Below are positions 12,303 through 16,571 of a stretch of DNA of 40,822 bases, in pieces. Source of the DNA: Mollicutes bacterium (GTDB lineage Bacteria; Bacillota_I; Bacilli_A; Izemoplasmatales; Izemoplasmataceae). The translations under genes and the position numbers were made by a program. The notes beneath the pieces were generated by a model. That model worked only from the letters and a program-made list of their open reading frames with translations, was not told where the DNA came from and ran no database searches. Numbering within the stretch: position 1 is the stretch's first letter; the number at the start of each line of letters is the position of its first letter. Where the stretch lies: contig PWEL01000011.1 in NCBI GenBank assembly GCA_003553945.1, positions 1 to 40,822 of the forward strand. Reading direction: 5' to 3'.

Positions 12303-12836
12303 TCATAGTTTTCCGCGAACCGTCTCCCAGTGGGTCTCGATATGGCGCATCCCCAGGCGGAGAACGCGATAAAGAGGATTATAAAGCCAGAGGATAGTTA
12401 GGAAACTCGAGACACCCATGACGAATTCAAAGGGGAGGTCCGCCAGGAGATATGGCCAGAACTCATCCAAGCCGATCTGCACCATGACAAAAGGAATGAA
12501 CACCCAACCGTAGATGAAGGAGAAAACAAAACCGAACACGGCGAGTGTGACATCATGCTTGGTGCATCTGAGCACTGTGTGATAGAAAATAGGAATGAGC
12601 GACCATCCTATCAGCATCGGCAGGAGATAAAAGGGATTGAACTGGACGAGCATGCCGTCAAGCATCACATACACGAACACAATCGCCAGTGTCTCCCGAA
12701 ACGTGAAGATGCTCGCGAAGAGCACAAGCAGAAGCACGGTGAACTGTATATTCGGCAGAATCATGAGCATCTGTTTCTGCACGACGAGTACTGTCGCGCA
12801 CATGGCAATGAAGATCAGTCTTCTCAGCGAGGTCAT
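12303..12836 (-). CDS. ECF transporter S-component, probably for cobalamin
   Basis: A 177-residue, very hydrophobic protein with about five or six predicted membrane helices (near 7-25, 29-47, 50-65, 70-88, 98-120 and 128-152). Its length is that of energy-coupling-factor substrate-binding (S) components, which capture a vitamin and work with a shared EcfA/EcfA'/EcfT module. No such module is in the window. Specificity is inferred from position: it is the third gene after a cobalamin riboswitch, beginning directly after the stop of the membrane-anchored DUF4430 protein (TAG-ATG). A CbrT-like cobalamin role is most likely, but the sequence alone shows no substrate residues. Another small membrane permease remains possible. 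Confidence 0.7.
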   Translation of the reverse strand: MTSLRRLIFIAMCATVLVVQKQMLMILPNIQFTVLLLVLFASIFTFRETLAIVFVYVMLDGMLVQFNPFYLLPMLIGWSLIPIFYHTVLRCTKHDVTLAVFGFVFSFIYGWVFIPFVMVQIGLDEFWPYLLADLPFEFVMGVSSFLTILWLYNPLYRVLRLGMRHIETHWETVRGKL

Positions 12837-13238
12837 CTAATCCACCTCTCTCACACTCAGGGTATATGTACCGCCATCAACAAGCTCGATGCTGTCCACG
12901 CCTCTTTTCGCCATGACGCCGTTCACTTCGATAAAGATGAAATCTTCTTTAAAATCAGTCTCTACGTCTTCAACCGCAAGCAGCACAGGCTCTTCTCCGG
13001 TGAAAAGCCTCTGATATTGGTACTCAATCTCATAATGCATATCCAGAAGTTCGAAAAGCGTTCGATTCTCCTCGAAGGTGTGCACGTCCTCGAAGACAAG
13101 GGCGCTGTCTTCATCATATAATTCGATAGTGATTTCTCCAGCCTCATCCCCGGACATCCTCGGATACATGAAGACGACAAGGGCCAGAAGTAGCGCGAGT
13201 GCGCTCAGGACTACTTTCACGATCAGCGAAGTCTTCAT
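12837..13238 (-). CDS. Membrane-anchored DUF4430 (transcobalamin beta-like) protein
   Basis: 133 residues with a single N-terminal membrane helix (about 5-25) and an outward domain from about 35 to 132. The pattern fits DUF4430, the transcobalamin-like C-terminal family. RTLFELLDMHYE near 59-70 matches the usual leucine-rich helix. FIFIEVNGVMAKRGVDSIEL then DGGTYTLSV near 100-128 matches the typical NG...G...L.DG..Y block. In intrinsic factor and transcobalamin this fold covers one face of cobalamin. The start ATGA at 13238 overlaps the stop of the upstream lipoprotein gene by 4 bases, indicating coupled translation. It may pass cobalamin from the lipoprotein to the S-component. Confidence 0.7.
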   Translation of the reverse strand: MKTSLIVKVVLSALALLLALVVFMYPRMSGDEAGEITIELYDEDSALVFEDVHTFEENRTLFELLDMHYEIEYQYQRLFTGEEPVLLAVEDVETDFKEDFIFIEVNGVMAKRGVDSIELVDGGTYTLSVREVD

Positions 13239-14305
13239 TCAAAATAGTAAGGATGGGCGGTTTCGCCTTGAAGGCGCTGTTCACTCATCACCAGAGCCAG
13301 AAAGGCCTGGGGCGTAGTAAACATCATATCCGCTTCATCGTCGTCGTGTGTATACAGGAAGGCGCCATCCTCCTCCTGATAGGATATAAGATGTTGGAGC
13401 AATGTCTTCCCGTCCTCGATGTAGGCTTCACCGTCAGGGTCCTCTGACGCGGCATTCAGCGCGAGAACCGCCTGGGCGAAGGATGCGGCGTTATCTTCAA
13501 AGGGATGGTCATAGATATTCCCTTCCAGCGTTTCGAGAAGCGATCGCTTTTCGTCCTCGATTTCCATTTCACCTTCATAGCGCTCAAAAGCGAGATACAT
13601 AACGCTCAAAGAGTCCAAGCCCATTTCATCAAAGTCTTGTTCGAGCGCCCAATCCATGAAAGCATCAACTTCATCATCAGTTTCCGCTCCCTGCATGAGT
13701 GCCATGGCGTTATAGGAAGCGGTATAGGCATGCTCGAACTCAAGCTCATCGGCGAGTGTTTCTATCAATCCTTCGAAGGACTCGCCATTAGCGCTCTTGA
13801 GCATGATGCGATGGGCAATAGAGGCTTCCTCGAAGGCTTCCACATGCTCAGCGTCCGCCTCGATTCTCCCAGCATGCAGCAGGCCGAGCTGTACCTCCAC
13901 TGCATCCGCAGGTCCGGGATTATGTCCCTCATAATAAAGCGAAAGCGCGTCATGGATTTTCTCGGCTGTCTCATCATACCAGATCAGCTCGAAAAAGAAC
14001 CGGTCCTCGTCCTCGACAGCGGCGGTGTCGATGCTTTCCTCTAAAGGCTCATCATTCTTCTCGATAGCGATATAGCTGCCTTCGAGCGCTTCAAGATCTT
14101 CGAGCGCTTCAAGCATCAAACCGTAATCGTGCTCCGCCACCCTTACATCGTAGTGAGTATCCAAAACTTCATAGAGGCTTTCGGCCTCATCGATCCTTAC
14201 TGTCTCCGTCTCATCCTCGATGGTGATCTCCGCTATCTCTTCCTCCGCCTCGCAGGCGGTAAGAAGCATTGCGAATACAACAAGCAGGAAGAATGGTCTT
14301 TTCAT
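13235..14305 (-). CDS. Lipoprotein with DUF4430 and alpha/alpha-barrel domains (intrinsic-factor-like)
   Basis: A 356-residue exported lipoprotein from the ATG at 14305, which has AAAGGAGG 7 bases upstream. The signal peptide ends in the lipobox LTAC with C18. Residues 25-112 resemble DUF4430 (ESLYEVLDTHYDVRV, then GSYIAIEKNDEPLEESIDT and a final strand). Residues about 113-350 are helical with repeats of prenyltransferase/squalene-cyclase type, for example NAASFAQAVLALNAASEDPD and the run from Q305 to M340 with QEEDGAF and TTPQAFLAL. That is the alpha-barrel type found in transcobalamin and intrinsic factor, here placed after rather than before the beta domain. The mature protein is extremely acidic. 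Its position behind a B12 riboswitch points to extracellular cobalamin capture; binding itself is inferred. Confidence 0.75.
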   Translation of the reverse strand: MKRPFFLLVVFAMLLTACEAEEEIAEITIEDETETVRIDEAESLYEVLDTHYDVRVAEHDYGLMLEALEDLEALEGSYIAIEKNDEPLEESIDTAAVEDEDRFFFELIWYDETAEKIHDALSLYYEGHNPGPADAVEVQLGLLHAGRIEADAEHVEAFEEASIAHRIMLKSANGESFEGLIETLADELEFEHAYTASYNAMALMQGAETDDEVDAFMDWALEQDFDEMGLDSLSVMYLAFERYEGEMEIEDEKRSLLETLEGNIYDHPFEDNAASFAQAVLALNAASEDPDGEAYIEDGKTLLQHLISYQEEDGAFLYTHDDDEADMMFTTPQAFLALVMSEQRLQGETAHPYYFE

Positions 14306-14330
14306 GTGTAGGCCTCCTTTGATTTGAGAA

Positions 14331-14355
14331 ATAAAAAAACCATCCTCCTGGATGG
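14331..14355 (-). terminator. Riboswitch expression-platform terminator
   Basis: CCATCC/GGATGG stem with an AGGA loop followed by seven T residues on the minus strand, 25 bases ahead of the lipoprotein start. Its position after the aptamer implies control by premature termination when cobalamin is bound. Confidence 0.85.
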
Positions 14356-14384
14356 CGTGGTAGACGATTATCCTATCGGCTGAT

Positions 14385-14580
14385 GCCGGATAAGCGACAA
14401 ACGTCACCGCTCATACCCAGGAGCGTGAACTGTAAAGGGACAGGTAGGTCTACCGGCTCGACTTCCTCCTACTCCGCACGCCTTCCCGCTTACGCAGTGG
14501 CTGTGTGCGTTTCGTCCGTCTCACGGTTGCTGGGACAGCCCGGGATTCTCACCCGATTCCCTGTTGCAACACCTGAACCT
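14385..14580 (-). promoter_or_regulatory. Cobalamin riboswitch
   Basis: The minus-strand leader shows the ordered core of a B12 riboswitch. A GGTTCAGGTG entry is followed by GGGAATCGGGTGAGAATCCC and CCCAGCAACCGTGA. Next comes the hairpin GCCACTGCGTAAGCGGGAAG, and then the B12-box-like AGCCGGTAGACCTACC. Last is the P13-type hairpin CGCTCCTGGGTATGAGCG (14408-14425), whose loop would make the kissing contact. It starts at about the predicted transcription start and is followed by a terminator. It controls the lipoprotein, DUF4430 and ECF S-component genes. Confidence 0.93.
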
Positions 14581-14589
14581 TACATCTCA

Positions 14590-14618
14590 AGTATAGTCTT
14601 TGACACTCCGGTCGTCAA
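14590..14618 (-). promoter_or_regulatory. Promoter of the cobalamin operon
   Basis: TTGACG at 14618-14613, a 17-base spacer and TATACT at 14595-14590. The predicted start near 14583 places the riboswitch aptamer at the very 5' end of the RNA. Confidence 0.8.
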
Positions 14619-14739: not shown

Positions 14740-16119
14740 TTGAGACGTAGAATAATCAAGGGGGCGCTGCTTGCGCTATACTTCCTATGCATGCATGTGC
14801 TCATCTTCGGAGTCCTCCCCTTCAGCACGGCTTTATTTATAGGTGAGAGCGGTCTGGATTATGACGTCGAATCAATGCTTTCAGAAGCGGAAGAGACGAC
14901 CTACGCCGGCGTGCTGGATGAGAGAGGCTTCTCCTTCGATGCACGTGTGGCACTGATTGAAAGCGCGGAATCCTCGATCGAGATCTCCTCCTTTTCAGCC
15001 TCCGACGGCGAAACACTCGATACCATCGCCGGCGCCCTTTATCATGCCGCGGAAGATGGTGTCGACATCCGATTGCTTTTCGACGGTCTCGCACACACAG
15101 TCACCCTGAGCGATTACCGTATCCTGCATACGCTCAATGCACACGAAAACATCGATATCCGCTGGTTCGAACCACCGAACCCCCTGCTTCCCTACACCAT
15201 CCAGAACCGCATGCACGACAAGATGTTCATCATCGACGAGACGTACGCCACGAGCGGTGGGAGGAACATAAATGACCGCTACTTCAGGGAGGACCCTGAT
15301 TCAGGCACATTCGACCGGGATGTCTATGTGTTCGGAGACGGGGCGGGTCATTCAACCGTCACCGACATGCGCGCCTATTTCGACACTCTCTTCGAAAGCG
15401 ACTACACCATCGCCCACCCGAGGGACACAGTCGATGAAGAGATATTGACATCAATCGAAGCGGCACGAATTGCTTTCCTGGAAGAGAAGGACCCTGAAAT
15501 GATCATGAAAACTTTGAAGGCGGACGCCCACGAAGTGAAGAATGCAACGTTCGTCCACGGTCCGACAGACAGGGGCAAGAAAGACCCGGTCGTTCTGAAG
15601 ACCATGAGCGCCCTCGCCGAAGAGAGGGACGAATGGTTCGCCCAGAGCCCCTATATCGTCTTCTCGAGAACCATGCGCCACTATCTGCCCGAGCACGACG
15701 ACCAATCCATCACCCTGCTTACAAACAATATCGCAAAGAACCCCAATCCCTGGGGTGCGGGCGCCTATCTTAGGCACCGGCAGTCCCTCGCGGAGCACAC
15801 TCTTTATGAATTCCAGAGCCCCGCCAGCCTGCATGCCAAATCAATGACATTCGGTGATGATATCAGCGCCATAGGAGCGCTGAATATGGACCCGAGAAGC
15901 GCCTTTTTGAGCACTGAGAACATGGTGGTCGTCGTCGGCGAGGCGTTCACGGAGGATTTCCACTCGACACTCGATTATTATAAGGAAAGAAGCCTGGAAG
16001 TCGATGAGGACGGCTCCTATCAGGACGGTCCCCCTGAAGCGTACACGCCCTCTATTCCGAGGATGATATCGCTGAGAATGCGTCAGGGAATCGCTCATCT
16101 ATTCGACTACATGTTCTAA
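14740..16119 (+). CDS. Phospholipase D family protein, ClsC-like cardiolipin synthase
   Basis: A 459-residue membrane-associated protein with an N-terminal helix (about 8-34). The first HKD motif is canonical: H159, K161 and D166 in MHDKMFIID followed by GGRN. The second, LHAKSMTFGDD (H365, K367) with GALNMDPRSAFLSTEN, has Gly372 where the aspartate normally sits and Asp373 one place later. Both fit the ClsC/YmdC branch of cardiolipin synthases, which join phosphatidylglycerol with another phospholipid; other PLD transferases or nucleases remain possible. The start is TTG at 14740, supported by AAAGGAGG about 9 bases upstream. With the dUTPase it forms the only plus-strand unit. Confidence 0.85.
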   Translation: MRRRIIKGALLALYFLCMHVLIFGVLPFSTALFIGESGLDYDVESMLSEAEETTYAGVLDERGFSFDARVALIESAESSIEISSFSASDGETLDTIAGALYHAAEDGVDIRLLFDGLAHTVTLSDYRILHTLNAHENIDIRWFEPPNPLLPYTIQNRMHDKMFIIDETYATSGGRNINDRYFREDPDSGTFDRDVYVFGDGAGHSTVTDMRAYFDTLFESDYTIAHPRDTVDEEILTSIEAARIAFLEEKDPEMIMKTLKADAHEVKNATFVHGPTDRGKKDPVVLKTMSALAEERDEWFAQSPYIVFSRTMRHYLPEHDDQSITLLTNNIAKNPNPWGAGAYLRHRQSLAEHTLYEFQSPASLHAKSMTFGDDISAIGALNMDPRSAFLSTENMVVVVGEAFTEDFHSTLDYYKERSLEVDEDGSYQDGPPEAYTPSIPRMISLRMRQGIAHLFDYMF

Positions 16120-16133
16120 GAAAGGACGATACC

Positions 16134-16571
16134 ATGAGAAAATTTGAAAAAGCCAAAGGCTACAATGAGGTCTATTTCCCGAAACGTTCCACAGGAAAAA
16201 GCGCAGGCTATGATTTCGCCATCTGCACATCCCTCACTGTCAGACCGCACGAAATCGCACTCGCAAAGACAGGTATAAAGGCCTGCATGCATGATGATGA
16301 AGTCCTGAAGATCTATCCGAGGAGCAGCCTCCCGAGAAAATTCCACCTCACCATCCCGAACAATGTCGGCATCATCGACGCCGACTACTATAACAACCCC
16401 GACAACGACGGAGCCATATTCATCCAGCTGTACAATTTCTCCGATGAGGCAGTCACATTGAAAAAGGGCACGCGGATCGCCCAGGGAATCTTCGAGAAAT
16501 ACCTGACGACAACGGATGAAACACTCAACGACACAAAAAGGACTGGCGGCTTCGGAAGCACGGGAGAATAA
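16134..16571 (+). CDS. dut: dUTP diphosphatase, trimeric type
   Basis: Hydrolyses dUTP to dUMP and diphosphate, keeping uracil out of DNA and feeding thymidylate synthesis. It is 145 residues. The five trimeric dUTPase motifs are visible: SAGYDF near 24-29, PRSSLPRK near 62-69, NNVGIIDADYYNNP near 77-90, GTRIAQGIF near 112-120, and the glycine-rich tail RTGGFGSTG at 136-144. It begins 14 bases after the phospholipase D gene with AAAGGA upstream and ends at a shared terminator. The pairing with a lipid enzyme has no obvious functional sense and may be simple co-transcription. Confidence 0.95.
   Translation: MRKFEKAKGYNEVYFPKRSTGKSAGYDFAICTSLTVRPHEIALAKTGIKACMHDDEVLKIYPRSSLPRKFHLTIPNNVGIIDADYYNNPDNDGAIFIQLYNFSDEAVTLKKGTRIAQGIFEKYLTTTDETLNDTKRTGGFGSTGE

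Follow-up and report, generated by a model that had tools for sequence, protein, structure and literature searches.

A predicted cobalamin uptake operon of Izemoplasmatales combines a riboswitch, a transcobalamin-like lipoprotein and an ECF S-component

A transcobalamin-like clade of beta-grasp proteins was described in low-GC Gram-positive bacteria by Burroughs et al. in 2007 (PMC1796856). The passage of that work that treats these proteins reports bacterial fusions of the beta-grasp domain with a toroid, which can be N- or C-terminal, and operons that carry a second paralogue together with CbiO and CbiQ, in hosts that usually lack B12 synthesis. A function in B12 scavenging and a transfer to animals were predicted there (PMC1796856). 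CbrUVT has since been named as an ECF system for B12 (PMC6593275, PMC6722938). ECF-CbrT (6FNP) is a B12 transporter with proven function, and CbrT of Lactobacillus delbrueckii transports B12 in vitro with the ECF module alone, without partner proteins (PMC5997447). In Bacteroides, BtuG surface lipoproteins are reported to capture B12 for the BtuB transporter (PMC10404256). Our literature search returned no binding or transport test of the bacterial DUF4430/toroid carrier proteins. To our knowledge, ECF importers are regarded as systems without extracellular binding proteins, in which the S-component itself captures the vitamin.

The operon that we analysed lies at 12303-14618 on the minus strand of a stretch of 40,822 nucleotides, called the window here, and consists of three genes led by a cobalamin riboswitch. 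It belongs to the kind that was predicted in 2007. As in the systems of the 2007 passage, both folds, a predicted surface location, a second paralogue and a host that probably lacks B12 synthesis are found together. The ATPase and EcfT genes, in contrast to the operons of that passage, lie outside the window operon, and the host is of the Izemoplasmatales lineage. A riboswitch leader and a CbrT-type S-component, both found in the window operon, are not mentioned in the 2007 passage. The earlier note on this DNA nevertheless overstated the novelty of the locus: beta-grasp/toroid fusions, with this unusual domain order among them, and operons with a paralogue are on record in that passage (PMC1796856), and operons of this kind are common in Bacilli. 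The three-component name CbrUVT fits the three genes of the window, and we infer that CbrU and CbrV might be these DUF4430 proteins. Gene 3 shares its S-component family with ECF-CbrT of L. delbrueckii (6FNP), where the gene order nrdJ-cbrS-cbrT-pduO differs from that of the window operon. Human intrinsic factor, haptocorrin and transcobalamin have the same two folds and the same cobalamin context as gene 1, but the alpha domain comes first in the animal B12 carriers, whereas the beta domain comes first in gene 1. Because the alpha-before-beta order is not found, we consider gene 1 related to the animal family by fold, without belonging to it. The animal carriers are secreted and taken up via receptors. 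In outline, the window system may work like BtuG/BtuB, with capture by a surface lipoprotein in both cases; that system differs in belonging to a Gram-negative outer membrane. BtuG is also not known to share the folds of the window proteins.

Gene 1 (13235..14305, minus strand) is an open reading frame for a lipoprotein of 356 aa, gene 2 (12837..13238, minus strand) for a DUF4430 protein of 133 aa with one N-terminal anchoring segment and gene 3 (12303..12836, minus strand) for a CbrT-like ECF S-component of 177 aa. These lengths are exactly those that had been claimed for three coupled genes, and the junctions agree with coupling: genes 1 and 2 share an ATGA overlap, and the ATG of gene 3 lies directly 3′ of the TAG of gene 2. 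In most genomes of the window's own family within Izemoplasmatales (f1; f2 and f3 are other families of the order), dut precedes the start of the B12 operon and rpsB lies past its end. The source assembly has a size of 1.17 Mb and is 64% complete. A chance origin of the operon features was ruled out by their conservation across dozens of genomes. Divergent neighbours at 14740-16571 of the window encode a protein of 459 residues that has PLD-like domains (PF13091), followed by a dUTPase (16134-16571).

Upstream of gene 1, cmscan detected a cobalamin riboswitch aptamer (RF00174) at 14426..14591 on the minus strand. The match is full-length, covers model positions 1-189 and scores 85.5 bits (E 7.6e-20) against a gathering threshold of 31.5 bits; it is the sole RF00174 match in the 64%-complete source assembly. 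The riboswitch had thus been recognized correctly, but the span given for it, 14385-14580, was off by about 10-40 bases. All 32 f1 genomes examined have a cobalamin riboswitch at the operon, as do 16/16 f3 genomes. A sequence scan, weak evidence by itself, placed an intrinsic terminator hairpin with a T run at 14339..14356 (minus strand; GCCATCCAGGAGGATGGTTTTTTT from 14356), but each of the 33 f1 leaders examined has a hairpin of the same kind. Just 3′ of the aptamer lies a likely antiterminator strand, CUCCUGG (14417..14423, minus strand), which can pair at 7/7 positions with the terminator sequence CCAGGAG. Full 7-bp pairing, with G-U allowed, is kept in 30 of the 33 f1 leaders. The changes seen in this pairing are one-sided (G-U), and compensatory covariation is therefore absent. 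As the folding energy of the leader did not differ significantly from that of dinucleotide shuffles (z -0.99), the covariance model and conservation carry the case for a switch. Judged by its sequence, the leader fits a standard off-switch that acts by transcription termination. A promoter-like TTGACG-17 nt-TATACT was found by consensus scan at 14590..14618 (minus strand) with 10/12 matches; the region has six such sites where 3.0 +/- 1.6 would be expected, which makes this site weak by itself. Of the promoter and terminator that had been assigned to the operon, the terminator is borne out by the f1 leaders and the promoter stays a weak consensus match.

The product of gene 1 carries the lipobox LTAC, whose cysteine (C18) is invariant among 33 homologues. 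Its AlphaFold model (pLDDT 90.6, pTM 0.85) contains a DUF4430/transcobalamin-beta-like domain at about residues 23-109 and an alpha/alpha toroid at about 110-349. Within the modelled beta-grasp domain, a helix (44-51) is followed by strands 54-59 and 62-68, and such a beta-hairpin inserted after the helix is the mark of the transcobalamin-like clade. The top Foldseek matches of the beta domain were the DUF4430 structure 3U7Z and the beta domain of human transcobalamin (5NO0; probability 1.00, TM on target 0.76, rmsd 1.9 A). The toroid was aligned by VIA-align with intrinsic factor (2PMV) over 215 residues at 3.6 A and a Z of 16.1. Drimenyl diphosphate synthase, a terpene cyclase, scored above intrinsic factor with a Z of 18.6, and sugar epimerases scored as high as intrinsic factor. 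In the model the toroid fold is clear, and similarity to this fold is unspecific as to use. The earlier note had read this protein by eye as a lipoprotein with a DUF4430 domain followed by an alpha/alpha barrel, in reversed order relative to intrinsic factor, and had proposed AlphaFold modelling of the 356-residue protein for comparison with transcobalamin; the model agrees with this reading in domain order and in both folds.

Taken singly, the three proteins of the window reached no Pfam family above its cut-off and no NCBIfam family. The gene 1 sequence alone matched neither PF14478 nor any PDB chain, and a single-sequence search of the genome contigs gave no relatives. Because the window proteins alone fall below the Pfam cut-offs, family alignments were required for fold and family assignment. 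With the gene 1 alignment, 29/33 members matched PF14478 at E up to 0.1 (best 4.3e-14). Homologues of gene 1 were found in 36/61 relatives searched, and the toroid profile matched 43/90 genomes of Izemoplasmatales, all of them f1. When compared with the PDB, the gene 1 family profile matched 3U7Z (E 9.5e-7), and transcobalamins followed at a non-significant E of 0.14 and up. A toroid-only profile ranked transcobalamin-1 first among solved structures (E 0.019), and with a beta-only profile it came second after 3U7Z (E 0.11). These transcobalamin matches (E 0.019-0.14) are not significant by themselves and are suggestive at the sequence level. We predict with considerable confidence that gene 1 binds cobalamin or a close corrinoid.

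For gene 2, a membrane-anchored DUF4430 protein had been proposed, and the data agree with this. The sequence has one N-terminal hydrophobic segment and lacks a lipobox. The window protein alone scored 15.7 bits with PF14478, for which the cut-off is 23.8, and 21/34 relatives in its alignment matched this family at E up to 0.1 (best 7.5e-8). In a profile-profile comparison, gene 2 matched the beta domain of gene 1 with 99.6% probability.

The family profile of gene 3 had a sole match in the PDB, chain A of 6FNP (CbrT), with an E of 2.1e-4. The AlphaFold model (pLDDT 93.8) shows a six-helix fold, and ranks 1-18 of the fold comparison were all ECF S-components or ECF complexes (Z 11.0-14.8); 6FNP is absent from these fold-comparison lists, which bears neither way. 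PF12822 was reached by only 2 members of the gene 3 alignment. The S-component that had been proposed at this position is thus recovered by its fold, and within the PDB the profile leads to CbrT and to no family for another vitamin. Through this profile we recovered, as named relatives, metagenome assemblies of Candidatus Izemoplasmatales (Izimaplasma) along with related Mollicutes. An EcfT-like protein (PF02361) was present in 24/24 well-covered relatives; a PF02361 search did not find EcfT in the window's own 64%-complete assembly.

Across the order, the S-component tracks NrdJ, the B12-dependent ribonucleotide reductase. The S-component was found in 33 of the 41 genomes; the 8 genomes that miss it are one incomplete assembly and all 7 f2 genomes. 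NrdJ was found in 32 of the 41 and in 0/7 f2 genomes, and neither B12-binding domains nor the adenosyltransferase occur in these seven. The co-occurrence among f1, f2 and f3 represents a handful of evolutionary events rather than 41 independent ones. Synthesis of B12 was judged by one marker gene, CbiD, which was found in 0/41 genomes of the order and in 6/14 controls. Strong matches to BtuC-like (FecCD) permeases occurred in only 4/33 genomes with the S-component. Given the joint occurrence of NrdJ and the S-component, the absence of CbiD and the restriction of strong FecCD matches to four genomes, B12 is used and probably not made by these bacteria, and the operon is likely the importer in most of them.

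Operons of this kind are widespread in Bacilli. An S-component match was obtained in 131 of 395 genomes of the class. At 20 loci outside the order, hand-picked and not randomly drawn from the class-wide match list, the S-component gene is immediately preceded by a DUF4430-type gene in every case (18 at E < 1e-4, 2 weaker); a cobalamin riboswitch is present at 16 and a toroid lipoprotein at 10 of these 20 loci. The plasmid pLp900-2 of Lactiplantibacillus plantarum carries nrdJ, adenosyltransferase, DUF4430 and S-component genes in this order, and an Enterococcus faecalis plasmid has the same four within one neighbourhood. In f3, the operon usually consists of a single DUF4430 lipoprotein and the S-component, and in some cases a longer lipoprotein comes first. 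The first gene in two f3 genomes (G040 and G044; L065:6616-8517 and L067:5999-7894) encodes a lipoprotein of about 630 residues that matches no toroid and apparently contains three DUF4430 domains in tandem. In Haploplasma modicum ATCC 29102, an acholeplasma and named type strain, a pair of genes for an anchored DUF4430-like protein and an S-component stands alone (L158:5607-6519), and this pair had no cobalamin riboswitch match. The strain might serve as a model for laboratory work.

Taking all data together, the locus is best explained as a B12-repressed operon for cobalamin scavenging in a host that probably does not synthesize B12, and we regard this explanation as probable. In our judgement, uptake of cobalamin or a closely related corrinoid through this operon is very likely. 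Plentiful cobalamin would bind the riboswitch so that the terminator forms; with scarce cobalamin, CUCCUGG would pair with the terminator and the operon would be read through. The lipoprotein, tethered outside the membrane and modelled with a confident fold, is predicted to hold the corrinoid between its beta-grasp and toroid domains in the manner of transcobalamin and intrinsic factor, which have these domains in the opposite order. Beside the S-component, the anchored DUF4430 protein might hand on the corrinoid or cap its entry. The S-component would then import it, powered by an ECF module encoded elsewhere, as suggested by homology with CbrT. A relay in which gene 1 hands over to gene 2 and gene 2 to gene 3 is put forward only tentatively. 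An external feeder is dispensable in principle, since CbrT of L. delbrueckii works with the ECF module alone (PMC5997447). Similarly tentative is the more general reading that an ECF importer is served by dedicated extracellular carriers across much of Bacilli, with a transcobalamin-like lipoprotein and an anchored beta domain supplying a CbrT-type S-component. Its main support is the DUF4430 gene that adjoins the S-component gene upstream with near constancy.

This same adjacency would also be expected if gene 2 were an auxiliary subunit fixed to the S-component, serving as its cap or in assembly and comparable to CbiN and NikN, the small proteins of cobalt and nickel ECF transporters, and if gene 1 merely concentrated the corrinoid locally. 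The homologue of gene 2 adjoins the S-component at all 20 outside loci, the toroid occurs at only 10, f3 operons are mostly DUF4430 plus S-component alone, and in Haploplasma modicum only the pair is found. However, the DUF4430 proteins of the f3 two-gene operons have their own lipobox-like cysteine and resemble free surface lipoproteins, and the DUF4430 fold corresponds to the half of transcobalamin that binds the ligand, as shown for the paralogous domain of gene 1; we consider a fixed subunit possible but rather doubtful. It is unlikely that the system gathers corrinoids other than finished B12, such as cobinamide or other cobamides, with the riboswitch sensing the end product. CbrT does carry cobinamide too, and B12 binding proteins are commonly poly-specific (PMC5997447), but CbiD is absent, there is no sign of a preference and the adenosyltransferase is the sole salvage gene examined. 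The terpene cyclases at the top of the toroid fold matches raise the question whether the toroid protein is an exported enzyme, akin to terpene cyclases or sugar epimerases, whose place in a B12 operon is incidental. Against this, the toroid of gene 1 is joined to a transcobalamin-type beta domain within a lipoprotein, and all complete family copies checked lie under a cobalamin riboswitch. The DxDD motif of class II cyclases is absent from gene 1 and occurs in only 3/35 family toroids. An exported enzyme is therefore highly improbable, and a terpene cyclase function of gene 1 was rejected given the lack of DxDD and the riboswitch and beta-domain context.

For the preferred reading of a scavenging operon, these data back the 2007 prediction with evidence from riboswitch, structure models and co-occurrence and tie it to one S-component family. 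The operon offers a defined system for asking whether bacterial relatives of intrinsic factor bind B12 and whether extracellular carriers can feed an ECF importer. If the relay is true, the view of ECF importers as systems without extracellular binding proteins would change. The operon may also be relevant to the proposal that the animal B12 carriers originated in bacteria.

A second version of the operon was observed at two loci (L056:1801-3444 and L106:6084-8724). It comprises a cobalamin riboswitch, a cobalamin adenosyltransferase (PF01923), an anchored DUF4430-like protein and a divergent S-component, with a coiled-coil lipoprotein in one of the two. A near complete genome (G013) has this second version alone and no toroid gene. 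The protein encoded by gene 1 of the window is strongly acidic, with 60 E and 33 D against 6 K and 9 R (93 D+E versus 15 K+R). Given this composition and the sediment sample names among many of the named relatives, a saline or alkaline habitat is possible.
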